Under the pieces are notes generated by a model. That model had not been told where the DNA came from. It ran no database searches and saw nothing but the letters and a program-made list of their open reading frames with translations. Shown in pieces: positions 1,022 through 62,157 of a stretch of 64,000 nucleotides of DNA; position 1 is the stretch's first letter; each line of letters opens with the position of its first letter. The translations under genes and the position numbers were made by a program. Origin of the DNA: Gossypium raimondii (lineage: Eukaryota; Streptophyta; Magnoliopsida; Malvales; Malvaceae); the NCBI RefSeq assembly GCF_025698545.1, contig NC_068566.1, positions 45,425,192 to 45,489,191 on the forward strand, read 5' to 3'.

Positions 1022-4000
1022 ATGCATATGAAGGAAAGCGGTCCAGCTAATGGCTTGCATGGAACTCATAATGTAGATATTGAACAAATGGGAAGTTTTG
1101 AAGGTGTGATTCGACGTAAAGTAATAACATTTTTTAGCTCTTTCAGTGTTTTTAATCATCTTCCACTCTTGAACTTGGAGCCTTGATTTTACTAGGTGAC
1201 TGGCTGTCTTCTTTGGTGGACTGGTTAAATGCAATATTTCCTGATTTAAGGTTGCCACTGGATATGACAGAAGACGAGCTGAGAGGGTGTCTGATTGATG
1301 GAACTATTTTTTGTACCATTTTGAACAAGCTGCATCCTGGTTCTGTTGAAATGGTTTGATCAATCATTTGTTAATACTTTGTTTGCTGAGTTATTATTAT
1401 TATTATTATTATTTTAGTTCACTTTTCTTTTTTTAAGACTTAATTTTAAATGTTTTTATCTTGTTCTGGACGTTCTACTTCACCATTTGAGCATGTTTCT
1501 TCTCTAACTTCAGGATGGTGATTCTGATTGTGGTCTTGCAAATGTCAAGAAATTTCTGATTGCTATGGATGAAATGGGGCTGCCCAGCTTTGAATTGTCT
1601 GATATTGAGCAGGTATCAGTTGATTTGAAGAAGCTTTTTCTTTGAGCAATGTTCTATTCTGGGTGCCAAATATTTAAGGTTGGATTAAAGTGAAAACATT
1701 TTTCTACTAATTGATCTTGAAACAAAAACTATTTGCCTACAAAATTGATCTTAGCTTGTGCATGATGAGGAGTAAGCTATGGCTGGCTCAGTTTTGGGTG
1801 TATGGGTTTGGTATATACCTGATAAAATGAACTTTGGACTCTCATGTTTAGTTGTACGTCTATCTCAGTCAAAAGAATTTGTCTTGGGATGTAAACTCCT
1901 CTTTCAAGCCCTTTTGATCTTAACTTTGGGATGGTTCTTGATCTGAGTGGAGGCTTCTCCCCCCCTCCCCCTGATGGATTGATCATTTGATCATGGAATG
2001 AAACCTCTATCTGGTTAATGGTGTATGATGAACTACCTTTTTTCTTTTGGGACAAAATGAATTACCCTAGTCGGTTGGGTTCAAGTTGCAAGTTAGCATT
2101 CCATTGCTGTTTTTCTTTTCTTTCTACCTTTTGGTTAATAATTTGGGACATATGCAGGGCCATATGATGCCGGTTTTAGAGTGCCTTAAGACACTTAGAT
2201 CATGTTTCAATCCTAATGATGAGGCCAATAGCTTCCAACATCCTTCCAGAAAGAGATGGGATATTTCTGGTGAATTCGAGAGCATCCAAATGAAGCAAGG
2301 ATGTTATGCTGATCTTTCTGATGCAACAGTTTTGGAATTATTGAAATCAAGCAGTTTAGATGTAAGATTCTGAACTCTTTCCATACATGTGTCTGTATCT
2401 ATTACGTACTCAAGATTCTGATAGCAACTTTTTGGTTAATGCATTCTTATGCACCTTCCTTTTTGCAGAACGTCTCAACTCAATCACTATTCAGTATAAT
2501 TTACAAGATTATGGATGAAAGTATTGAAAGAAAGAAAGGAGATGTACCTCATGTATGCCATCAGGAGTACATACATTTGCTGTATTTCCTTAGCATTCAT
2601 GGATGTTTTTAGTTTTGTCTCTTTTCTGAGACTGGTAGTCATGCATCTGTCGTGCTATATATATATTTTTTGATACCGTTTTTTAATTTGTGGTTTTCTA
2701 TTGTTTCCTTTTTGCTCAGCGTGTCGCATGCCTGTTGAGAAAGATTGTAGAAGAGATCGAATGGCGAGTTTCAACTAGGGCAAGAAATTTAAAAAATGTA
2801 AATTGCTTCGGAACTTTCTATTTCCTCTCTCTAAGAGATTGTTTTCTCATGTGCGGTGCATGGATAATGAATATTTGTATTTTGTGATCCTGAAGCAAAA
2901 CAAACTTTTTAGGGCACAGGAGGAAAAGTATCAATCAAGGATAAGAGCACTTGAGACCCTTGCAAAGGGAACCATGGAGGAAAATATGGTACTTGACTAA
3001 CAGTTTAGGGCATGTGCCTTAGTTCTTTTTGCCTTTAGTTCTCCCTGTCTCAATAATCCTGGATTTGTTTTGCTTCCTGTAGGTTGTTCTAAAGAATCTA
3101 CAACATATAAAGGTGCAATTCTTAATGTTTTCCCTCTTAATTCATTGTTGATTTTTAAAATTTTACCATGTTGTTTTAGTTCTGTGCCTTTGGTTTTCCG
3201 AAGACTCTCATTGACATATTGTTCTCTGGGTTTCACATCTTTTAATAATTGCTTCATCCATAATGCTTCATCCATAAATTTGAAACTGAAGGACTATATC
3301 TATTTCTGTGAATTGCTTAACTTATATTTACTAGTTAAGTTTAAACTGCAAGAAGGATACAGTATATTTATATGTACTTTTGCATGTATTTCCATTTATA
3401 TCTTGTATGAAATTCAACTAGTGTACTGACAGAAGCGACTTTGAGATTTGAATTTTCTTTTGAAGGAAAAGCCATTTAATTTCAGAAGAAAATTTTAAAG
3501 GATGGTTTAACTTTGTATTACTTAGTTTAAAATGCTTATATTAAGTTTGCAGATCTGATATTAGTCTCCTTTTTACGTACTTGCACTGCCTGCAATGCTT
3601 TTATGTTAGTTTAACTAGTTTGGGATCGGAACTTTTCACTAGAATTTGGATAGTAGATAATCTGATCCCTGTTGTGTTGTGAACTCAAGCTAAGATTGAC
3701 ATGGCTAATCAATGAGGCTATTCTTTTTTCCCGTTGTAAGTCTTAATACCAGGCGACTATGTGGTGTTATGCAAAGATTTATCTCTTTGCCATATTTTGT
3801 TGCTTGATAGTCTAATATAATTGCTTTGTTATTTCATGAGAATTGCAGTTTGAAAAGAGCAAACTGGAGGAGAAGGGTAAAGTTGAAGAGCAGGATGTGC
3901 TTCAGCTTAAGAAGGAGAAGGTTCAGAAAGACCTTGAGATTTCTAGGCTAAAAGAGGAACTAGAGAGCAGCAAAAAGATGCATGAAATACAGTGTCTCCA

Positions 4001-7000
4001 ACTGGAAGCCCAGGCTGAGGATAATAAAGTATTGTTAGAAAAGAAGTTAAAAGAAGTCGAGTATCTTTTAAGTGACTCCAGGAAGAAAGTGGACGAGCTT
4101 CAGTCATTTTCTGAATCTAAACAAAAGAGATGGAAAGATAGGGAGCGCAGTTATCAGAGCTTCATTGATCAGCAATTTCGGGCTTTGAAGGTTTGTTGTG
4201 TTTGTGATGTTTCTATGATAGGATATTGATACATGGTCCTATAACATGAAGTTTTACACTGTTTAGGAATTGAGGGACGCTTCAAAATCTGTCAAACGTG
4301 AGGTTCTAAAGACTAAAAAGAGCTACTCAGAGGATCTAAATTTCTTAGGTAGTGTTGGTTATTCTTGCTGTTTGTTTTGTTTGTTTGGCTTGGTCTGCTC
4401 ATTTCCTTATATTTTGGGATGTGAGCAATTCCTCATTGTGTATACCCTTTTTCCTCGAGTAGGAATCAAGCTTAAAGGAGTGGTAGATGCTGCTGAAAAT
4501 TATCATTTGGTTCTTTCTGAAAACCGTAGATTGTACAATGAGGTTCAGGATTTGAAAGGTACATTGTATATCTTAGTTTGTTCGGGTTTCTTTGCCAAGT
4601 AGCTTAAACTACTTCTTATTTGTGCAGGAAATATTAGAGTCTATTGTAGGATAAGGCCATTCCTTCCAGGGCAAAGTAAAAAACAAACAGCAATAGAATA
4701 TGTTGGTGAGAATGGTGAATTGGTTGTTTCGAATCCCTCAAAATTAGGGAAGGACACTCATAGGCTCTTCAAGTTTAACAAGGTTTTTAGTCCAGCAGCT
4801 ACCCAAGGTTCTAAAATTTCTTAACTCAGTTCATTTGATAATGAAACTCATCTCTTAATTTAATGCTATATAGTTATAGCCACACTTTTCATGACTGCTG
4901 CTTGTATATCACATATTTCAATGTGATATGTCTGCAGAGGAGGTATTTTTGGACACCCAACCATTGATTCGATCTGTTCTTGACGGATACAATGTTTGCA
5001 TATTTGCTTATGGTCAAACTGGCTCAGGAAAAACTTATACTATGGTGAGCTGCCTGCTAATATTTTTCCATTTGAAATATATAGATTATTTTAAACTTGT
5101 TGGCTATGTCTTATGCGTGTTTATTCTTCTTTCCAGAGTGGACCTAATTTGTCTTCTAAAGAAGACTGGGGAGTCAACTATAGAGCATTGAATGATCTTT
5201 TTCAAATCTCTCAAAGCAGGAAGAGCTCCATTATATATGAAGTTGGTGTGCAAATGGTTGAGATATATAATGAACAAGTTCGTGATCTGCTTGTTATTGA
5301 CAGTTCTCAGAGAAGATATCCTTTATTTTAATCTTTTTAATTTCATTTCTTATGTTTCTTGAATCTGGTCTGAAATTTGGCTCTATAACTTATGTTCTAT
5401 TGCTATTGTTCCTTATCCTTGGTTCTATACAATACCTTACGTTACCCTATTGGTTTAAGAATTTGCAATACTCATTATAATTTTGTGTTTGGTCTAATGG
5501 TTATATTTTATTCCTTGTGATTCTTTTTCCTGCCGTTAAAGATGTTATTTGTTTCCTTTGACTTGCACACACTTGGGATTTGGAGCACCACCCAACCAAA
5601 TGGGTTAGCTGTCCCTGAAGCAAGCATGCATTCTGTAAAATCAACCACAGATGTTCTGGAATTGATGAATATCGGTTTAATGAATAGGGCTGTTGGTGCT
5701 ACCGCCCTAAATGAGAGGAGTAGCAGATCCCACAGGTTATATTTTACTCTGTATGTAACTTGTTATTTGGAGAATTTGAGTTTTGCATCTAATGGGTTTC
5801 AGTAAATTATGTGCAGCATTCTCACCGTTCATGTTCGTGGCACGGACATAAAAACTAATGCTGTTTTGCGCGGTAGTCTACATTTGGTGGATCTTGCTGG
5901 CAGTGAACGGGTAGATCGTTCTGAAGCAACTGGAGATAGGCTTAGGGAGGCACAACATATAAACAAATCCCTGTCAGCTCTAGGAGATGTAATTTTTGCT
6001 CTGGCACAAAAGAATTCTCATGTCCCTTATAGAAACAGCAAACTGACTCAAGTTCTCCAGAGTTCTCTGGGTACTTTTTACTGTTCAGATTTTAATTTGC
6101 TATTTCACGGTCATGCCCATTAGATTCTACATACCTTAAAAGCCTATTTATTTGCACTTACTGATTGTAGGTGGCCAGGCGAAAACCCTTATGTTTGTGC
6201 AGCTTAATCCTGATGTAGAATCATACGCTGAAACCATAAGTACTTTGAAGTTTGCCGAAAGAGTTTCTGGTGTTGAGTTAGGTGCTGCACGGACTAACAG
6301 AGAAGGAAGAGATATCAGAGAACTTATGGAACAAGTATCCTTTTCTCTTCCTCTACTCATTTTCCCTTTTCTTCGAGTTAATGTAGCATAGCTGTTGAAA
6401 CCAATAGTTGATTGTTTGAAAATGGTTACCTTATTTCTCTGGGGACAGAGAAAGCAGAGTTATAGTCCAATGTTGGACCATGAAAATCTTCACTTTCATT
6501 AATGAGCCTATCAACTGGCATCGTTGCAACGGTGTAATCTCGTTCACTTATAATCTTCTATTTGATCTTATAGGTTTCATCGCTCAAAGAAACCATCACA
6601 AAGAAAGATCAGGAGATTGAGCGTTTGCAACTGCTTAAGGGTAATGGCAATGGTACTAAGCGTGGTATGAGCTCACTGAGGTACGAGTCTTCCTCTCCTA
6701 GGGGACGCTCCAGTGGGACTCCTCGACAAAGCCTGGGCCTCTCAAGACGGCCAAGCTTGGGAAGTTTTGAGAAAGCAGATGTTGATGCTGACATTTTCTC
6801 AGCTAATGGTGATAAGCATTCTGAATCTGGCTCTCATTGGTCAATTGATGAATCCAGGCATCAAAATGAATCACTTGCGCATACAAACATGATAGGAAGA
6901 GATTTGGGTCCGAATCTTACTGACGATATTGAACTGTTGGGATTCGGAAATGCAGATTCAGAGGAGAGATTAAGTGATATATCTGATGGTGATCTATCAA

Positions 7001-7522
7001 TGGGGGCTACAGATACTGATGGCTCAATCTGTAGTGCCGTGGAGTTTACTCTTTTCCCGGAAGTTTCAAAACCTGCTGATAAACCAGAGAACGTTGAGAA
7101 AGCAAGCAAATCTGAAAAATCTGATAATATTGGGAAGTAAGTATACTTTAACTCCTACGGCTTTTATTTTTCACTGCAATATCTGATAACTTGATTAATT
7201 TGACTTACTCCGGTCGGCTCCTGTTCAAAAATAGGTCTATCGCCCCATCACTCCCGTCTAAGCTTCCAAAGCTATCTCAGAAAGTGTTGCAAACAAAACC
7301 TACTGCTCGATTGTCACTGTCCCGGAGCACCTCCAAGATCCCATCGAGTACGTAATTATTATATACTGTTCCTATGATCAAACTGTTTTGAATTTTGATC
7401 ATTGTCTCCTCACTCTTTCGTTTTTCATTGGAATGTGTATATATATATCATCAGGTTCTAAGAAAATAACTGCTGCAACCACTAGCAATTCTTCGATTAA
7501 GCCCCCAAAACGACGGCCGTGA
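1022..7522 (+). CDS. kinesin-14 motor protein with N-terminal calponin-homology domain
   Basis: Minus-end-directed microtubule motor, possibly also binding actin through its CH domain. I read 20 coding exons: 1022-1103, 1196-1353, 1514-1612, 2158-2361, 2469-2552, 2720-2797, 2896-2988, 3083-3112, 3849-4190, 4267-4348, 4463-4558, 4628-4807, 4938-5044, 5137-5315, 5571-5735, 5817-6070, 6171-6334, 6574-7136, 7235-7347, 7455-7522. Every junction keeps frame, giving 1046 residues. The CH domain is about residues 28-150 and a coiled coil about 240-440. The kinesin-14 neck and motor begin near 440-455 ([13 protein letters not shown]). The P-loop GQTGSGKT is 535-542, switch [10 protein letters not shown] 652-660 and switch II DLAGSE 685-690. 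A serine-rich tail follows residue 800. All motor motifs look intact. From memory it is closest to the Arabidopsis KIN-14 subgroup with [11 protein letters not shown] after loop 2. All introns are GT-AG except the AT-AC intron 5316-5570. Confidence 0.95.
5316..5570 (+). other. AT-AC (U12-type) intron of the kinesin gene
   Basis: No GT donor can join exon 14 to exon 15. The exon instead stops before ATATCCTTT, the textbook 5' splice site of minor-spliceosome AT-AC introns. The intron ends ...TTGCACAC, with a branch-site-like TTCCTTTGAC (5552-5561) whose A lies about 10 bases before the AC. Splicing 5315 to 5571 keeps frame (phase 2) and gives SSQRRLGIW, which fits kinesin-14 motors. Confidence 0.88.
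6335..6573 (+). other. kinesin intron with a U12-like GT donor
   Basis: This intron starts GTATCCTTTT, a full match to the donor consensus of GT-AG introns removed by the minor spliceosome. It ends TTATAG. The branch region is weaker: TATTTGAT lies only about 8 bases from the end, short for a U12 branch site. The junction is phase 0 and in frame, so the intron is real; its class is uncertain. Confidence 0.5.
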
Positions 7523-25030: not shown

Positions 25031-27308
25031 CTAAACACGAGCAATTGGAGAGAAGGGAGGGTTAATCACGTAGGATGGTGGGATTGGCATCGCTCTCTTG
25101 CCGGCTTTTTTCTTCTTCTCCTCTTCCGTGACCGCTTCGATTAAGAATTTCACTTCATCCTCAAGAAATGATTTCAGTGAATTGCATTCGGGCAAATGAT
25201 TGGTTTGTGGTTCACCGGTAGCTGTGGGGGTTTCACTACCGTGCAATATGGCGACACAAATGGAAAATGCTTGTAATGCGGACAACTTTGCATGGAAATC
25301 AACCGCATACCCTCCTTCGATGGCTGTCATGGTCAATGCCGGTGTATTCTCTTTGGCACCCTACATGATAATCAAAATTTAGTAACGGGTAACATTAATT
25401 AACCCTGCAGAATCGAAAAGTTGCTTCGGAGTAAAATTAAAACCTTACCTGAAGAAAAAGTTCAAAAGGCTGCTCACTGTCCACTAACACTTGATCTTCG
25501 GAACAATTTATACTTGGGTTGCCAAAAACTACAAGGGGACAAGCCATGTCCCAGCCACCGCAATCACAGCCTCCGCCATTCCTCCACCTATCGAGTAATG
25601 ATGAAGGACCCGAAGTCTCGGTACTAGGATATCCATGGTTTCCGGTCGGAATAACCACCTTCACCTTTTCTTGGATCTTGCTATCTTGTACGTTGCTTTT
25701 GCATTCTTCGACCATAGAGAGATTGAGTAGGTTTAAATGCCTCGTATAGCCTATTTTATCGCCTCGTCTGTATTTCAAGCTCTCTCTCTTCTTAAATGGT
25801 ACTTGAATGACTATGGCGGCAGTTTCAAGGCTCGGGTGCAAATTCGCAGGTAACAATGGAGTTGATCCATTTACGGATTCGACCTCATCGCTGTCCGAAG
25901 CAACATTTAAATGATCTTTCAGCCTCACTGCATTAGAGCCATCATCTGATTCATAGCAACCCACATCTGAGCCTGGACTAGGACAGACCCGGGTTTTACG
26001 AACATCAGGGGATTCTTGGACGGAAACATGCTGTCTCGCATGCGCAATGTCATACAAAACAAATTCTGTAACCATGGAGTTTTCAAGAACCCCATTATCT
26101 TTAATTTCTGAGCACAAACAGCACGAGACTTGCATCTGCGCAACAATGGAAGAATCTTTGCTACTATCACTCAATCCCCATATACTCGCATTGCTCTTCT
26201 TTCTATTGCCGACTGAGTGAAACGTATATACCCAATTGAAAGCATTATCTTGTTTCCATTGTTTGGCCAGAAAAACAACATCTTCTGGTTGATTCATTGA
26301 GAACTCGAAAAATGGCATCCCATGTTTCACTCCCAACTTGAGACAACCATGTAGGTGAACCGGTGAACTTGCCGTTGGTGATTGAACCCTATCTTTCGTA
26401 GTGAACAAGGAATCCGGTTCGGAATTCCGAGGTGAATGAGAGAAGTCGTGTAACAAAGATTTCCGAAATGTCTTATTTCTCCTAGCATTTTCCATCCCGG
26501 CTTCTGCTGTATAACCCAATGGACTTCGCAATGACTTTGATTTCATGAACGGATCAAACATCTTTTTAATAGGACTAAATCTAGGCCTTGAGCTGGTCCA
26601 GGAAAACCGGTCACTTTCCGACGATGATGGCGAACAAGACGCTTCCACCTTAGCAGATAACGACTTATGCAGTTTTTGAACCGTGTCTTCTTCAAGAAGA
26701 TCATTCCCATCATCTAAAGGACGAACAACTGGTTCACATCCAAAACTTACATCCTTCTTGTTACCTATCCTGACACTTTGCACCAACTGTTTCCCTCTCT
26801 TATCTAAATTTTTATTATCCGAACTTAAACAGATTTCAATAAAGCCACTCGATGAACATGGCTCGACATAAGGTTTGTTAACTGAACCTGATTTCAAGTT
26901 TGAGCCAACAGACATCACTGAGTTCCTTTCATCTTCTGAATTACAAAGAGAGTCGACAAACCTAAACGAATAAGACGTATCACTACTACGCGACAATTCA
27001 ATTTTCCTCCGGCCCTCGACGGTACCAGTCTTTTTCATTTTACTTACCTCTTTAGAGCTTTGATATATAGATCCACGCTTTAACTCAGCATTGCTTTCCG
27101 CCCCAATAGATCTACATTGCATGTTCTTACAAGAAGCACTACGGTAACGGCGAAAGCTGATTTCGGTAAACCCTTCCTTTACCTTCAATATCTCATCTTT
27201 ACGACCCGATTTTCCTTTCGGATATCGCTTCTCGATGTTCGAACATTGTCGAGGAGGTGGAAGAACAGTGTTGGGACTCAGATCTAATGTATCCATCTCT
27301 AATCCCAT
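25031..27308 (-). CDS. DUF3527-domain protein
   Basis: Function unknown; this is a plant-specific family I recognise from its C-terminal block. Two coding exons on the minus strand, 27308-25449 and 25360-25031, are joined by an 88-base GT-AG intron at phase 0, giving 729 residues. The start MGLEMDTLDL is chosen because the longer frame upstream crosses an AG acceptor (exon begins at 27324) and is therefore intronic. Residues 1-330 are serine- and charge-rich and probably disordered. The conserved region begins near CLKLGVKHGMPFFEFSM, continues with VVFLAKQW and WVYTFHS, and ends in the cysteine/glycine-rich GGGCDCGGWDMACPL plus FSICVAILHG. There is no signal peptide or membrane span. The gene appears complete. 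Confidence 0.9.
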
Positions 27309-28060
27309 TGATTCATTTACAGTCCTGCAAAAAAATGCAATGCAAGTCATATAAACACAAATTCGAGCTAAAAAAGAAAAAGGCCATCATCTTCAACAAT
27401 CCACAAATTAAATTGATCTTAACATTAGAAATAACATTCATTTGGTAAAAGATTTGAACTTTATTAAAAATAAAAATAGAAACTTTATTTTTCACTTGCA
27501 TTTCAAGCTAACAAAAAGGGGGCAAAGTGAAAGACAAAAAATGGGGATACCCACCATTATAGATCTTAGAGAAGTGAATTAAAAGAAAACCCCAAAACTA
27601 AGCAGATACAAGCAAAATCAAAATACCCATTTTTCAACTCAAAGTTTCTCTCATGAAAAAATCTACAAGAGAAAGAACACCAAAAATCCTTTCTTTTAAG
27701 AACAAACCAGACATGAAAGAGTACTTAGAATTGTAAAAGAAACACCCAACAAAAACAAAAGTACAATGTAAAAAGCAAGACATAACAAGAACTGGAACAG
27801 TAACTAGAAAACAAAAGTATGATATAGACATAAAAAGCATGCCTTGCCTTGCCTTTGCCCCTTTTCCTTGACTGTGTGTGCTATAGATTGTGTTTTTAAC
27901 AAAAAAGAGTGAGAGTCAAGTATATTTGAGTGTTTTCTTTTTCTTTCTCTCTCACATGATCTCTCATGAGAGACAATGAGCTGCTCAGCTTCTGTTTATG
28001 TCTTGTAATAAAGCAATCTTGTTCCAATTCATCATCATATGCTTGTTTCCTATATTAGGT
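27309..28060 (-). promoter_or_regulatory. 5' leader, leader intron and promoter region of the DUF3527 gene
   Basis: An acceptor (TTTTTGCAG) ends 16 bases before the start codon on the minus strand, so a leader intron runs through at least 27327-27500. Pyrimidine-rich, CT-repeat-containing sequence near 27930-27975 on the plus strand is typical of a plant leader or core promoter. The upstream donor and the start of transcription cannot be fixed. Confidence 0.45.
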
Positions 28061-41539: not shown

Positions 41540-42175
41540 AACCAACTTGTTCAAGAAACAATTAAAATGGCAGATTCACAGGTTTTAATTGAAGAATCTA
41601 AGTTTATCTCATTTTGGGTCTTCATTTCTTTGGTTTCCAGGTTCTTCTTCATTATTCCTTTCCTCCTTTGATTTGTTTTAATTATAATAATTGCATATTT
41701 TTTCCATTTATGTATTTTTATTCAACTTTTTAATTTCTGGGTTTTTTTTTTTTGCGTTTATTGTTTTCTATAATTGTTCTTCCTGTTTTACTTTGTGAAT
41801 TTGGTTTTTTTGGGTTATGCTTAGTTTGACTTGAAGGGTATGTTTGGAAGTAGCTTGCTTGATGATAAAGTTGGATTATTTATTTATTTATTTATTGTGA
41901 GACAAATTGTTTTATTCTTTACCCTTTTATGGTCAAAGAGAATCATTTGAGAACTTGGTTTTTGCATCTTTTTTTTACTTCAATCTTTGGGTGTTTTTTT
42001 TGGATGTTGATGTGTGAATTGTGGTGCAAATTCGAGGAAAGTTGAATTTTCTTTTCGGTTCTTTAATTTTCCTTTGGTGTTCATTTGATTGGATTTGTGT
42101 GGACTTTTCTGCAAATAATTTAGAAGGATCGGGTTTTAATAGAGGAATTTGTAAAAGTTATAGTTTTGGTTGAAA
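41540..42175 (+). promoter_or_regulatory. leader region of the HAD phosphatase gene
   Basis: Purine-rich then CT-rich sequence, with a likely leader donor at about 41640 (TTTCCAG/GTTCTT) and T-rich intron-like DNA up to about 42160. The short ATG near 41566 opens a small upstream frame. Splice sites are inferred from sequence only. Confidence 0.4.
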
Positions 42176-43327
42176 ATGGCAGTGATGGAGTCGATTACAA
42201 CGACATCTCTTCTTGGTCATAGTCCTTTGCATGGTAGAGTTTCTGTAAGGGACATTTCCGGCAAACAGAAACCAATCAGTTATCGACTCCGAGTTACAGA
42301 ATTTACCGGCAGAAGAATTGTTGTGTCGCCTCTTTTACCGAGGTTGAAAGCCGATAGGTTAGTTAATTTAGGGGTAGAGGCTCGTGCGATAGAGCTGACG
42401 AAGGAGGTGCATGCGTATAGAGAAGAAGAAAGATCTCCTAAGAATTGGAAGGATGAAATTGAGGCTGGTATCGTTCAAAAACCCGATTTGTGGCCACCGG
42501 AAAATAGAGCCGATAAGCCTTCCTTGCGTAATCCCCGGCTTCGTCACGAAAGGATGGGTTGTGGTTGGATAGCGGCTATTTTCGAATGGGAAGGAGTTAT
42601 AATTAAAGATAACCCTGAGCTCGAGAAGCAAGCATGGTTGACTCTTGCTGAAGAAGAAGGCCGATCCCCTATTCCAGCCTTTATGCTGAGAAGAATAGAA
42701 GGGATGAAGAATGAGCAAGCGATTTCTGAAATCTTGTGTTGGTCTAGAGACCCGGCATCGGTTAAAAGAATGGCCGCGAGGAAAGAAGAAATTTACCAAT
42801 CTTTACAAGGTGGGGTGTATAGATTTTGTAATGGATCTAGTGAGTTTGTGGATATTTTGATGCATTACAATATTCCAATGGCTTTGGTCTCGACTCGGCC
42901 GAGAAAAACTCTAGAGGCTGCAATGAGAACAATCGGCATCGAAGAGTGCTTCAGTGCCATTGTGGCGGCAGAGGACGTATGTCGAGGAAAACCCGATCCA
43001 GAAATGTTTCTATACGCTGCACAACTTCTAGAATTCATTGCAGAGCGGTGCATTGTATTCGGAAACTCTAACCAGACCGTCGAGGCAGCTCATGAGGCAC
43101 GGATGAAGTGCGTTGCTGTTGCTAACAAGCATCTTGTCTATGAGCTCAGGGCTGCAGACTTGGTGGTAAGACGTTTAGACGAGCTTTCAATTGTTGATTT
43201 AAAGAACCTTGCAGATATAGAGTCACCTGAATTCGGATCCGGAGACCCAATCCTGGAGATGGAGATAGACGAGGAAGATGATGAACCGCCTGCATCAACA
43301 GCAATTGATGATGGTATTTTCTGGTAA
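42176..43327 (+). CDS. plastid HAD-superfamily phosphatase, PyrP2-like (riboflavin pathway)
   Basis: Single-exon gene, 383 residues. The family member in Arabidopsis (PyrP2) is annotated as dephosphorylating 5-amino-6-(5-phospho-D-ribitylamino)uracil in plastid riboflavin synthesis. The first ATG in frame is at 42176; the codon two before it is TTG. Residues 1 to about 60 are rich in Ser, Arg and Thr like a transit peptide. The HAD fold follows: motif I region IFEWEG at 135-140, motif II LVSTRP 237-242, motif III GKPDPEMF with Lys272, motif IV region VFGNSNQT 294-301. The usual nucleophile pair DxD is ExE here and motif IV has Asn where Asp is expected. As I recall the sequence, Arabidopsis PyrP2 shares these changes. 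An acidic C-terminal tail follows residue 350. The call is sure for the family, less so for the reaction. Confidence 0.88.
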   Translation: MAVMESITTTSLLGHSPLHGRVSVRDISGKQKPISYRLRVTEFTGRRIVVSPLLPRLKADRLVNLGVEARAIELTKEVHAYREEERSPKNWKDEIEAGIVQKPDLWPPENRADKPSLRNPRLRHERMGCGWIAAIFEWEGVIIKDNPELEKQAWLTLAEEEGRSPIPAFMLRRIEGMKNEQAISEILCWSRDPASVKRMAARKEEIYQSLQGGVYRFCNGSSEFVDILMHYNIPMALVSTRPRKTLEAAMRTIGIEECFSAIVAAEDVCRGKPDPEMFLYAAQLLEFIAERCIVFGNSNQTVEAAHEARMKCVAVANKHLVYELRAADLVVRRLDELSIVDLKNLADIESPEFGSGDPILEMEIDEEDDEPPASTAIDDGIFW

Positions 43328-54870: not shown

Positions 54871-54998
54871 CGTATATCATCACTTCTTTGCCTACATAAA
54901 AACCCCACACACCCGTCAAATTCTTTGTTCATTGCTCTCTCTTTTCTTTGTTTTCAGTTCTTAATACTTTGTTTGATTTCATCAAAAAAAATCCCATC
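54871..54998 (+). promoter_or_regulatory. beta-tubulin core promoter and leader
   Basis: A TATA-like CATAAAAAC lies at about 54894, roughly 105 bases before the start codon. It is followed by a CT-rich stretch (CTCTCTTTTCTTTG) that fits a plant leader. The exact start of transcription is unknown. Confidence 0.45.
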
Positions 54999-57238
54999 AT
55001 GAGAGAAATCCTCCACGTTCAAGCCGGTCAGTGTGGAAACCAAATCGGAGGCAAATTCTGGGAAGTTGTTAGCGACGAACATGGAATTGATCCCAAAGGG
55101 AACTACGTCGGTACTTCTCGTGTTCAGCTTGAGAGGGTTAATGTTTACTACAACGAAGCTAGTGGTGGTCGTTACGTACCCAGAGCTGTTTTAATGGACC
55201 TTGAACCAGGAACCATGGATAGCTTGCGTACTGGTCCGCACGGACAACTTTTTAGACCTGATAACTTCATTTTTGGTCAAAATGGAGCTGGGAATAACTG
55301 GGCTAAGGGTCATTACACTGAAGGAGCTGAATTGATTGATTCGGTTCTTGATGTTGTTCGTAAAGAAGCTGAGAATTGTGATTGCTTACAAGGTATTTGA
55401 TAAAATTGCTAAGTGACTCTGTTAGACACAATTTATTATTTTTATTTTTATTTTTATTTTTATTTTGTGATGGAATGTTTGCAATTAGGCTTCCAGATTT
55501 GTCATTCTTTGGGAGGTGGAACTGGTTCGGGGATGGGGACACTGTTGATATCAAAGATCAAGGAAGAATACCCTGATCGGATGATGCTGACTTTCTCGGT
55601 TTTTCCGTCGCCTAAAGTGTCTGATACGGTGGTTGAGCCCTATAATGCGACTTTATCAGTGCACCAGCTTGTGGAAAATGGTGATGAATGCATGGTGCTT
55701 GATAATGAAGCTCTCTATGATATCTGTTTTAGAACTCTCAAGCTCACTAATCCCAGCTGTAAGTTGATATTTAAATTCTATTTTCATATATACTAATTGG
55801 GTTTGGGTTTATTCTCAAACACAAAAATTCGATCAAACCCGAGTCGAATTCGATCAAAATTAATACTGATAATAAAAAAGTTAACAATCTAGACCTATTC
55901 AATTTAAACTTGAATTGATTTGAACCCAAAAATAGACGAGAACTTGAAAAAGTTCGAACACGTAACCAAGTTTTGAAATGATGCAAATCCATACAATTTT
56001 ACTTGAAAAGCCCCAAGTCTCAAACCCAAAACTCTAAATAACTTGAAAAACCCAAACTCAACATTACATTAGAAAATTGAGCCTCAAACCCATACTTGAA
56101 ACAACTTGGCTCAAAGTGATCAGAGCGTAGTCAGAAGATTATTTTAAGGGAGTTAAAGTGTAATTTTACTATTATATTAACTTGTGATTTCTTAAAAATT
56201 AAAGGGATGATATAGATATTTTTCCATTTTAGGGGAGTCAAGATCACTGTCTACCCTTCTTTCCACATCTAGAAGTGATCAAAATTTGAAATGATTTGAA
56301 CCCAAGATAATCTAAACCTAAAGTGAACTAAACTCAAGTAATTCAAACTGAAGTGACCCAAAATTTAAAAATTAAAACTGATCCAATCTAAATTGACTTG
56401 ATCCAGAACCAACTTAACTCGTGTAATTCAGAGATCTAATTAGTCATATACTTCAAAATGAAAGAAATAAAACCTTTCTTGCTTGCCAAGGTAGGTTTGA
56501 GGATTCAATGACTTTTTACATATGATGTTTTTCAAGTAACCTCTTTTTTGTGCATTTATATGAACAGTTGGTGATTTGAATCATTTGATTTCAACAACTA
56601 TGAGTGGAGCTACATGCTGCCTTCGTTTCCCAGGCCAACTCAACTCCGATCTCCGAAAACTAGCTGTAAACTTGATCCCATTCCCACGCCTGCATTTTTT
56701 CATGGTTGGTTTTGCACCCTTGACATCCCGTAGCTCGCAACAGTACCGAGCCTTAACGATCCCCGAGCTAACTCAACAAATGTGGGATGCTAGAAACATG
56801 ATGTGTGCCGCTGATCCCCGCCACGGAAGGTACTTGACGGCGTCAGCTATGTTCAGAGGCAAGATGAGCACTAAAGAAGTTGATGAACAAATGATAAATG
56901 TGCAGAACAAGAACTCATCGTATTTCGTAGAGTGGATTCCCAACAATGTTAAATCAAGTGTTTGTGACATCCCACCCACCGGGTTAACAATGTCATCAAC
57001 ATTCATGGGGAATTCGACGTCGATTCAAGAGATGTTCCGGCGTGTTTCGGAACAATTCACCGTTATGTTCCGTAGGAAGGCGTTTTTGCACTGGTATACA
57101 GGGGAAGGAATGGATGAAATGGAGTTTACAGAAGCGGAAAGTAACATGAATGATCTGGTTTCGGAGTATCAGCAATATCAAGATGCTGTTGCAGATGACA
57201 ATGATGAAGATTATGAAGATGAGGCAATGGAAAATTAA
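54999..57238 (+). CDS. TUB: beta-tubulin
   Basis: Subunit of the microtubule alpha/beta heterodimer; binds exchangeable GTP. Three exons, 54999-55392, 55489-55758 and 56568-57238, keep frame and give 444 residues, normal for a plant beta-tubulin. The N terminus is MREI, the tetrapeptide recognised co-translationally in tubulin mRNA autoregulation. The tubulin signature GGGTGSG is at residues 140-146, where it belongs. [19 protein letters not shown] and the acidic tail ([11 protein letters not shown]) are present. The two introns have GT-AG ends. Intron 2 is long (809 bases) because it holds dispersed repeats at about 55860-56450. The isotype is somewhat unusual near residues 35-45 ([14 protein letters not shown]). 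It appears intact and functional. Confidence 0.97.
55759..56567 (+). other. beta-tubulin intron 2 with repeat insertions
   Basis: An 809-base GT-AG intron. About 55830-56100 and 56290-56440 are rich in 'aacccaaa / acttgaatt' words of a dispersed repeat. Between them, 56130-56270 matches the G-rich-bordered family seen at 23870, 37270 and 52500. No coding content; the short minus-strand frame 55771-55992 is not a gene. Confidence 0.6.
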
Positions 57239-58829: not shown

Positions 58830-61130
58830 TCAAGCATTTTTCTTCAACTTTCCTCTTAACAACAATTCCCTCTTCATCCAATATACCAAAAACTCATTCC
58901 AAGTATCAATAGGTCCTGGCAAACACCAATGAACACAATCATTTACTGATACATTCCTGTTCATTGAATGTCCATACCTATTTGGATGCCCATCTGGTCT
59001 CAACCACATGATTTCAGTGATATTTATAAGTACAAATCTCAACCCATTTTGTATCCCTTCTTCTACCTTAGCTTTCCTAAATTCCTCAACTTGAGTCAAA
59101 TAAAACTCTTTATTATACTCTTCTATTTTCATCTCTTTTGTAAAGGGTCTTGTTCTATCACAACTCCCACCATTATTCCAATCCCCATTTTCAAAATGGG
59201 CTGCTGAAAATGTCCTTAAAAATGTAACCCCTTCATAGTTTTTAAGGCTAAGAAGGGTTTTAAAAGTTGTTTGAAATGCCATTTTGTACCCATAATACCT
59301 TGTGAGGCTAGTGATGTTGCTGTGGTTGCATTTGTGGCAACCTATGAGTTGACCATCTTGGTAGTACAATAATGGGCGAAAGAACCATTGGCCTACTGAT
59401 ATGATTACATAATCAAAATTCTTAATCTCATTTGCCCATTCTTCATCAGCTTCATCTAAGTATAGGCTCATTAAGCTGTTGAATGAATGGCCTTCTGGGT
59501 CTGAATCTTTGTATTTAACTAAGAATGGTGACCACAATGCTGATAATGTGAAATTGTATTCACTATAGAACAAATGTGTTGAATAGATTGAGGCTGATGG
59601 AGATTTGTTTGATATGTCCTCTGCATAAGTTACCTGAAAAGATAAAATGCAAATTCAGGGGATTAAAGTAATAGAAGTTAGATTGAATTTCGTCTCTTCT
59701 ATTCAAAAAATGAGTAAATTAGTCATTATACATTAGATCAAAGAATAAACTGGTTCTTCTATTAAAAATTCTATCAATTTTTAGTGTTAAAAACTGGTCT
59801 CTATCCATCAATATAAAGTACATGTGTTACACCAAGTGTAACTGTCTGATTATTTTGTTAACCACTTCAATATTTTAACAGTAGAACTGAATGAAATTTT
59901 TAACAAAAACAATAGCAAAAGTATCATGAAGGCCCCTGTACTAAGAGTCAGATTGCATTTTGCCTTCTCTACTTAAAAAAGGGGCAAATTAGCCCCTATC
60001 TGTTAGATCATACAACAAACTAGTCCTTTCTATTAAGAACTCCATCAATTTTTAGTGTTAAAAACTTGTCCCTATAAGTCGACATAAGATACACATGGTA
60101 TGTCATATGTAACTGCCTAATTATTAAGCCAGCTTTTAATACTACAAATATATGAACATTTTAGGGTAAACTATTGTAGAGGCCATCCAACTATGGTCTC
60201 TTTTTTTTGTCACCTAACTATTAAAAGTTACAAAATGGTCACCCAACTATTAGTAAATTTCTTTTTGGTCACCTAACTATTTAATTTTGTCTTTTTTGGT
60301 CACCAACGGGCTAATGTAAAATTACAAACACTCAAAAAACCAAGATAGTTAGATGACCAAAAAAGACAAAATTGAATAGTTGACTGGCCATTTTTTAATT
60401 TTTCATAGTTGGATGCCGCAAAAAAAAATCATAGTTGAGTGAATTTTTTAACAAAAAAAAGGACCAATATGCTCTTTGAACTAATGTACAAGGACTAATT
60501 TACCTATTTTTTGAGTAGAGGGGACAACTTTTACCTAAAAACAACCTACTTACCCTTTGATCTAACGTATAAAAACTAATTTATTCTCTTTTTTTAATAA
60601 AAGAAATAACGAAATACAATTTAACCCGAATATAAAAACCTTGATGGTACTTTTATCTGTTTTAAAAGGATGATTGAAAAGAAGCAACTTTCACTTACAT
60701 GAGCTAACAAGCACAGCAACGATTGCATTTGGTTCCTTCCTACAGAATCACCAACAAACGCCATTGATTTCCCTCGAACAATCTCTAAAAACTGAGTTGC
60801 ATCAAAGAGAGGTAACTCACAACCAAATGGCTTCCATCTCCATTTCATGAACTGTAAATCAGGTCTCCCAAACTTCATACAATTATGCTGATCAATAATG
60901 AGGGGACATGTTTCATTGGTGTAATAAGGACCTTGAGGGTAAATCACCCATTTTCCACTAAACACATCACATTTATCATCATCACCACCACCTAACTCAG
61001 TGCTTCTTCTCAAGCTGCTTGACAATGGAGGATGGGAATTTTTCAAAAGAATTAAAGGGATGGAAGTGATAAAAATCAAAGAAAGGGTTGAAACAAGAAA
61101 TTTTTGGCAATTGGTTTGATGAAATTTCAT
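58830..61130 (-). CDS. TBL-family (trichome birefringence-like) polysaccharide O-acetyltransferase
   Basis: Golgi enzyme family that acetylates wall polysaccharides such as xylan, mannan or xyloglucan; the substrate of this member is not evident. Two exons on the minus strand, 61130-60699 and 59633-58830, join at phase 0 to give 411 residues. The ATG at 61130 is the first in frame; the longer frame starts with a TTG codon. Residues 11-30 are a single hydrophobic signal anchor. The TBL domain with CDVFSGKW, then the catalytic GDS motif ([10 protein letters not shown], Ser129), and the DxxH motif in [10 protein letters not shown] (Asp376, His379) are all present. Length and motif order fit a complete enzyme. 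The intron (1065 bases) is unusually rich in palindromic repeats. Confidence 0.93.
59680..60660. repeat. nested palindromic MITEs within the TBL intron
   Basis: Successive shells pair with each other: AGATTGAATTTCGTCTCTTCTATT near 59685 with its complement ending near 60630; AAAAGTATCATGAAGG near 59925 with CCTTGATGGTACTTTT near 60640; and GGGTAAACTATTG / GTCACCTAACTATT arms at about 60168-60445 in the centre. They belong to the families at 10738 and 35808. No coding capacity. The whole insert lies within 59634-60698, so splicing removes it. Confidence 0.65.
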
Positions 61131-62157
61131 GGTTGGGAAGATAGAAAAAAGCAAGTGAACTTGTTGAAGTTATATATGAATTTTGACAAGGGCTGAGTGG
61201 CACCAACTAATTCATCATTATCATAATGAATGAATCCCCAATGTTTTTTGTTTGTTTCAAAAGAATGCTTATTATATTTGTACATCTTTATAGTAAGAAA
61301 ACATGGGAGTTCTCTTATGGTATATAGCAAAATGGTCCATTGTTTTTGAAGGAATAATATTAGGTATAATATTGGAAATTTAAATGGTATAATATCAAAT
61401 TTAGTCTTTAGCGTTTTCATTTTTTTTTTGTTAATTTGGGTCTTATTCTTTTCTTTTTATCCAGTTAAATTTAGTTATTAACCTTTCAAAAAAAAGTCGA
61501 ATTTATCTTTTAATGGAAATGTTGACTAAAGCATTAACATGACAAAATTTAATATTTATAAAATATTTAAAAATACACGTGGATTATCATGTTGTCTGTC
61601 GTGCTTGAAAGTTTAATGTTTTGTTTAGTATTTCCATTAAAATAACAATTTGACTCTTTTGAAAAGTTGATGGTCAAATTCGACTCTTTTAAAAGATGAA
61701 GGAACAATTTTAGAATAAAATAATAATGACCAAATTAATAAAATATATAAATGTTAAGGGTTAAATTTATAAATATACTTATTTAAATTGAATGATTGGA
61801 GTTAAGAAATGAATAAAAGAGAAGCAAAACCACGATTTTACAGTCAAAACCAATCAACTTCAGTCTCGTCTTTTATTTTTCATTTTAAATTTTTTCGGCA
61901 ATTATAAAAGTCGGCTTAAATGACAAATCGATATATGATAAAGAAAAGGTTAAATTCTCTTATTAGTTCTTGTACTTTGTAAAATTATGGATTTAATCCT
62001 ATAGTTTTTAAAATTTAAAATTTTAATAACCACCAAATGATAACATTTAAATTCAGTTATTTCCTATATATGATGTGCAAAATATTTTATAACGATTATC
62101 ATTTGTGTTCATGGGCGAAGTTAGAAATATTGATAGGGGTCGGGATATTTATAAAAA
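61131..62157. other. TBL promoter side and intergenic DNA
   Basis: Directly upstream of the TBL start (to about 61400) lies ordinary AT-rich sequence with no sure TATA box. About 61380-61760 is a dispersed repeat ('aatttagtctttagcgtttt ... ggttaaatttataaatata') similar to 11930-12110 and 20870-21010. No gene. Confidence 0.4.

Follow-up and report, generated by a model that had tools for sequence, protein, structure and literature searches.

A predicted U12-type AT-AC intron at a common position in the motor domain of a plant kinesin-14 gene and its paralogues

Results

A CH-domain kinesin-14 gene with one intron lacking GT-AG ends

The window (the whole 64-kb stretch of DNA analyzed here) is AT-rich plant nuclear DNA with intron-rich genes. 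A kinesin gene lies on its plus strand (Table 1). The hand-fixed model yields a spliced coding sequence of 3141 nt that encodes 1046 aa and is open through all 20 coding exons. Pfam domains found on the predicted protein were the kinesin motor (residues 457-777, 1.1e-108, nearly the whole profile covered), Microtub_bd (437-597, 3.4e-44), and the CH domain (34-130, 3.2e-8). The best PDB matches were the kinesin-14s KIFC3, KCBP, Kar3, and Ncd. The combination of a kinesin motor with an N-terminal CH domain indicates a KCH-type protein, and the same arrangement of an N-terminal CH domain and an internal motor is described for the KCH-type kinesin-14s GhKCH1 of cotton and OsKCH2 of rice (PMC1434745, PMC5852081).

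Other reading frames in the window were named by eye. Beta-tubulin-like frames occur at 54948-57238 (plus strand), about 47 kb from the kinesin gene, and a frame at 42170-43327 (plus strand) was guessed to be hydrolase-like. Pieces resembling trichome-birefringence-like proteins, again a guess, lie at 58830-61154 (minus strand). A frame of 637 aa at 25437-27350 (minus strand) has no assigned kind.

The coding model has 19 introns, 18 of them with GT-AG ends. The exception is intron 14, which starts with ATATCCTTT, ends with TTCCTTTGACTTGCACAC, and is positioned between the codons in exon 13 that we take to be the P-loop and the NERSSRSH codons in exon 15 that we take to be switch I.

Table 1. 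Features of the kinesin-14 gene discussed in the text (window coordinates)
Feature	Position	Strand	Basis or remark
Gene for a CH-domain kinesin-14, all 20 coding exons and the introns between them, start ATG at 1022	1022..7522	+	Manual model, every junction in frame
Exon 13, holds presumed P-loop codons from 5012	4938..5044	+	Gene model
Exon 14, 5' of the AT-AC intron	5137..5315	+	Gene model
Intron 14, predicted U12-type AT-AC intron, 255 nt, phase 2	5316..5570	+	Donor motif, frame, paralogues
Predicted U12-type 5' splice site ATATCCTTT	5316..5324	+	ATATCCTT in 12/12 kinesin-14 loci
Putative branch site of U12 type, TTCCTTTGAC; the A at 5561 is followed by 9 nt of intron	5553..5562	+	Same motif in L009
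Predicted 3' splice site AC	5569..5570	+	Adjacent AC dinucleotides out of frame with the 5316 donor
Exon 15, ends in presumed switch I codons NERSSRSH from 5710	5571..5735	+	Gene model
Intron 17, GT-AG, U12-like donor GTATCCTTTT	6335..6573	+	Branch site 6/9

Signals and reading frame of intron 14

The first-pass annotation had read this interval as a minor-spliceosome AT-AC intron on the strength of a donor motif, a branch-like motif, and a terminal AC, and all three are present (Table 1). The 5' end matches the U12 donor pattern [A/G]TATCCTT, and the AT and AC termini form one of the two pairs (AT-AC or GT-AG) sought for this class. Near the 3' end, TCCTTTGAC agrees with the branch consensus TTCCTTRAY at seven of nine positions when anchored on the A, and it is one T longer than the consensus; intron 14 has a putative branch site of the expected kind. 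Introns of the U12 type are expected to lack a polypyrimidine tract ahead of the 3' splice site. In intron 14, the sequence from branch to intron end is CTTGCACAC, and the stretch upstream is T-rich, as is the whole genome region.

Joining exon 14 to exon 15 across these ends splits an Arg codon (AG/A), and the spliced product reads ...SSQR/R/LGIWSTT... within the open 1046-aa frame, which bears out the claim of an exactly in-frame junction. Read-through of the intron reaches a stop codon (TAA at 5329) five codons in. Motor alignments to kinesin-14s in the PDB continue across residue 604, with only small gaps against KIFC3 and KCBP at the junction.

The signals were also searched for on both strands of the window. 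ATATCCTT alone occurred four times (three on the plus strand, one on the minus strand). A combined pattern, [AG]TATCC[TC] with a branch site of the TTCCTT type no more than 1.5 kb downstream and AC or AG close by, had intron 14 as its sole match.

AT-AC introns spliced by the major (U2) spliceosome are known (PMC2831892, PMC3584512), and intron 14 might in principle be one of them. Those of sodium channel genes carry G at donor position +5 (PMC2831892). Intron 14 has C at +5 and the full TATCCTT, unlike the known U2-type AT-AC introns, and removal by the U2 machinery is accordingly a very improbable account of it.

The same donor is present at the homologous position in 11 paralogues

The window gene's own genome (assembly G000; 750,779,957 bases in 281 contigs, at least 13 of which, C1 to C13, are of chromosome-like length) was searched with the motor exons, 20 loci were fetched, and paralogues were compared over their motor regions. 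ATATCCTT was found at the homologous place in the 11 loci with clear matches to both flanking exons (L009 to L019), that is, in 12 of 12 genes when the window gene is included. An in-frame AT-AC join from this donor was found in 10 of the 12 (the window gene, L009 to L015, L018, and L019). In L017 (G000:C1:47817000-47820500, minus strand), the sole in-frame end found from the U12 donor was AA, and AT-AA is the commonest noncanonical pair reported for plants (PMC10639083). Only L016 lacked an in-frame, stop-free join from ATATCCTT.

As a control, donors were collected at five other intron positions in the same genes, of which 49 of 60 gene-position pairs could be determined. Exact TATCCTT was present in 1 of these 49, the donor of intron 17 in the window gene. 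That donor, GTATCCTTTT, matches the GT type of U12 donor perfectly; at this place GTAACCGTC is found in L009, the paralogue closest to the window gene. Intron 17 was considered as a second U12 intron, and the case is unproven: its branch site is weak (6/9), and the donor is not shared with L009 or the four other determined paralogues. It is probably of U2 type, with a donor that matches by chance.

In L009 (G000:C12:53721500-53725500, minus strand), in-frame stops interrupt motor exons 12 and 16, so this locus is likely to be a pseudogene or to include errors. Even so, the U12 donor persists there, and the branch motif is that of the window gene. Such stops in so close a relative could suggest that the window gene is itself decaying and that its exon 14-15 junction is merely broken. 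We give this idea almost no weight, as the window gene is open through its 20 coding exons and the donor is common to 12 genes.

The comparison across paralogues is the strongest evidence for intron 14. Eleven sister genes share the start signal at the same spot, which argues that the intron is real. That a clade of 12 kinesin-14 genes shares it at this codon suggests that it is old.

Alternative joins of exons 14 and 15

The first-pass annotation also stated that no GT donor can join exons 14 and 15. This was too strong and is not literally true, since 14 GT-AG joins keep the frame without meeting a stop; all of them score lower than the AT-AC join. Within the limits set, 56 AT-AC and 13 GC-AG joins were found as well. 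The join that removes 5316-5570 received the top score when the products were scored as protein against KIFC3 and KCBP (220), and the best GT-AG join, with donor 5293 and acceptor 5541, scored 186. A U2-type GT-AG intron such as this one, beside AT-AC motifs present by chance, would need the cell to use a product in which about eight residues at conserved positions are swapped for intron-derived ones. It also falls behind in the paralogue-comparison scoring (521 versus 571) and leaves the shared codon position of ATATCCTT in all 12 genes unexplained. Despite the number of GT-AG joins available, we therefore consider that reading highly unlikely.

Other AT-AC pairs lie near the top of the KIFC3 and KCBP scoring (215, 214, 213, and down to 212), so the protein score rejects GT-AG but cannot fix the exact AT-AC pair. 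What fixes the exact junction, 5315/5571, is the evidence of the paralogues together with the U12-type donor motif, and not protein similarity alone.

Across the clade, the join from the U12 donor beat the best GT-AG join in 11 of the 11 genes where it is possible, by 4 (L011) to 58 points (L010). Among all joins tried, it ranked first in nine loci and second in two (L011 and L018). An earlier automatic choice of junctions, in which AT-AC pairs were handicapped, had picked the ATATCCTT donor in 9 of 12 loci, the others being L011, L016, and L018. These scores are support and not proof, because the picker permits many terminal pairs and at times prefers odd joins (AT-AA in L011 and L016; a two-base shift of equal score in L018). 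Taken with the signals, the frame, and the 11 paralogues that carry the same donor, they favor a U12-type AT-AC intron in the motor domain as the best reading of what the first-pass annotation had observed.

Branch sites and minor spliceosome snRNA genes

Branch sites were scored as matches to TTCCTTRAY with the A placed 7 to 22 nt from the intron end. The 12 clade introns matched at 7 to 9 of the nine positions (mean, 7.7); in the window gene, the 18 introns with GT-AG ends matched at 3 to 7 (mean, 5.2). The window gene's branch site is weaker than those of most paralogues. Control introns 1, 3, and 7 of the window gene also reach 7/9, equal to intron 14, so this signal cannot decide the matter by itself. 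The A is followed by 9 nt in the window gene and by 9 to 11 nt across the 12 loci; the 9 nt of the window gene fall short of the reported optimum for the distance from U12 branch to 3' splice site, 11 to 13 nt (PMC3584512).

Genes for three minor spliceosome snRNAs were found above the Rfam cutoffs: U12 (C10:56826755-56826913, 90.3 bits), U6atac (C8:50434704-50434831, 98.3 bits), and U11 (C3:4747209-4747335, 78.9 bits). U4atac was not found in the genome at an E value of ≤0.001 in a filter-limited search, which is no proof of absence. Branch regions were paired with a piece of the genome's own U12 snRNA. The duplex of intron 14 had an energy of -11.0 kcal/mol, and the mean for the 12 introns was -9.1 versus -5.9 kcal/mol for the controls, with overlap between the sets (L019, -3.8 kcal/mol; control intron 7, -10.2 kcal/mol). 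Pairing of the donor with U6atac and U11 pieces gave -6.4 and -6.5 for intron 14 and -5.6 and -8.2 for the U2-type control intron 13, which is no clean separation.

The intron position in related kinesins

A tree was built from 34 motor rows chained from tblastn pieces, with the junction columns left out. A single branch (ultrafast bootstrap, 98; SH-aLRT, 95) set the 12 loci bearing ATATCCTT apart from the rest, and four GT-AG kinesin-14 loci formed another group (95/87). The branch joining the wider sister group is weak (86/78), and some rows have long branches and unsure placements. In L021 to L024, a GT-AG intron interrupts the same split Arg codon in the same phase (4/4). The KCBP-like L020 has its intron at another place; L025 and L026 were unplaced at this position, and L027 and L028 had no usable match to exon 14.

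Seven further loci resemble kinesin-13 (L031 to L037; identity taken from the matches of one locus to KIF2C, KIF2A, and Klp10A), and in 7/7 a phase-2 intron with GT-AG ends is offset by one residue. The split codon is followed by K-L in kinesin-13 and by L in kinesin-14. Given this one-residue difference in position, the kinesin-13 intron is at most a candidate for the same ancestral intron as that of kinesin-14. Three donors among these seven loci (GTATTTCC, GTATTTCC, and GTAATTCC) faintly resemble a U12 donor.

Change from U2 to U12 type is reported to be very rare (PMC2831892, PMC7367187). An ancestral U12 intron that was later converted to GT-AG in the sister clade is for that reason the likelier history, one that a single genome cannot prove.

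L016 is a candidate for U12-to-U2 conversion

In L016 (G000:C13:34260000-34263500, minus strand; site around 1614-1720 on the reverse complement), GATGGTGTGTAAATAAGAG precedes the donor in the exon, compared with GATGGTCTAAATAAAAG in its sister L018. The two sequences differ by two bases, and this difference would account for both a new stop codon and a new GT donor. The L016 frame hits a TAA ahead of the intact ATATCCTT donor, which therefore offers no join that is in frame and stop-free. An intron of 106 nt with GT-AG ends (donor GTGTGTAAAT, acceptor ...CATTAG) is in frame. Its GT lies 16 nt upstream of the U12 donor and its AG four nt past the old AC, and its product, SADEIRNSS, is six residues shorter than that of L018. 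The other determined motor junctions of L016 (12, 13, 15, and 16) are GT-AG and stop-free. Under permissive scoring, an AT-AA pair (293) came out slightly above the GT-AG pair (287). L016 may have undergone true conversion from U12 to U2 type, may be a young pseudogene, or may reflect an error in the assembly.

Discussion

Intron 14 is very probably a genuine U12-type AT-AC spliceosomal intron. Recognition by U11 and U12, replacement at the donor by U6atac, and lariat formation at the branch are textbook steps of minor splicing. In intron 14, U11 and then U6atac would pair with the ATATCCTT donor, and U12 snRNA would pair with the TTCCTTTGAC branch region, where the lariat would form. The minor spliceosome would then join the two flanking exons, which would make the Arg codon, and with it the motor domain, whole again. 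The intron signals, the frame, their conservation among paralogues, and the U11, U12, and U6atac genes are directly observed features of this genome, and from the sequence we infer that it is the minor spliceosome that removes the intron. If intron 14 were left unspliced, the intronic stop would end the protein after 604 residues and a few intron-coded ones, and the motor would break off before switch I. With five introns downstream of that stop, the retained-intron message would be a likely target of nonsense-mediated decay.

This kind of intron is already well known. Intron 14 resembles plant U12-type AT-AC introns in its donor, its branch-like motif, its AC end, and perhaps its short distance from branch to end; it differs in a branch motif one T longer than the consensus, as in L009. 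AT-AC introns are 26% of the Arabidopsis U12 introns tabulated in PMC7367187. The U12 intron of plant CBP20 genes is likewise kept at one place within a gene family (PMC5932401), whereas in the present case the family is a clade of motor proteins, with 12 genes in a single genome, and the intron is of AT-AC subtype. Among the papers listed by full-text searches of PMC, none described a U12 intron in plant kinesin-14 genes, and orthologous Arabidopsis introns may well be contained in U12DB, SpliceRack, or IAOD.

Conversion of U12 to U2 introns is documented (Burge et al., as cited in PMC2831892). Of the 79 clusters reported, 74 are GT-AG and 5 AT-AC, and conversion of AT-AC introns is described in PMC2831892 as rare and as probably following a switch of subtype. 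The GT-AG introns that share codon and phase with intron 14 in the sister clade and the shifted GT-AG pair in L016 resemble such conversions. L016 would differ from the reported cases, which are mostly GT-AG, in starting from an AT-AC intron and in using a new neighboring donor with no subtype switch. Conversion via a cryptic U2 donor near the U12 donor is mentioned in PMC3584512, and L016 fits that route rather than the subtype-switch route. That a clade of 12 kinesin-14 genes needs the minor spliceosome because of a single ancient AT-AC intron in the motor, with L016 escaping in a single step directly from AT-AC U12 to GT-AG U2, is a tentative proposal to which we assign somewhat less than an even chance. 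If true, the L016 conversion would have occurred without the switch from AT-AC to GT-AG subtype that is proposed as the usual intermediate.

For the kinesin-14 family, these results would correct gene structures at a point where prediction limited to GT-AG introns would probably mis-join the catalytic domain. They would link no fewer than 11 readable junctions of the motor domain to minor splicing within a single genome, and they predict that impaired minor splicing in a plant would lead to a joint drop of correctly spliced mRNA across the kinesin-14 clade. The occurrence of apparent U12 AT-AC, U12 AT-AA, and GT-AG introns at one codon of one family would further make these genes a useful case for the study of intron class change.
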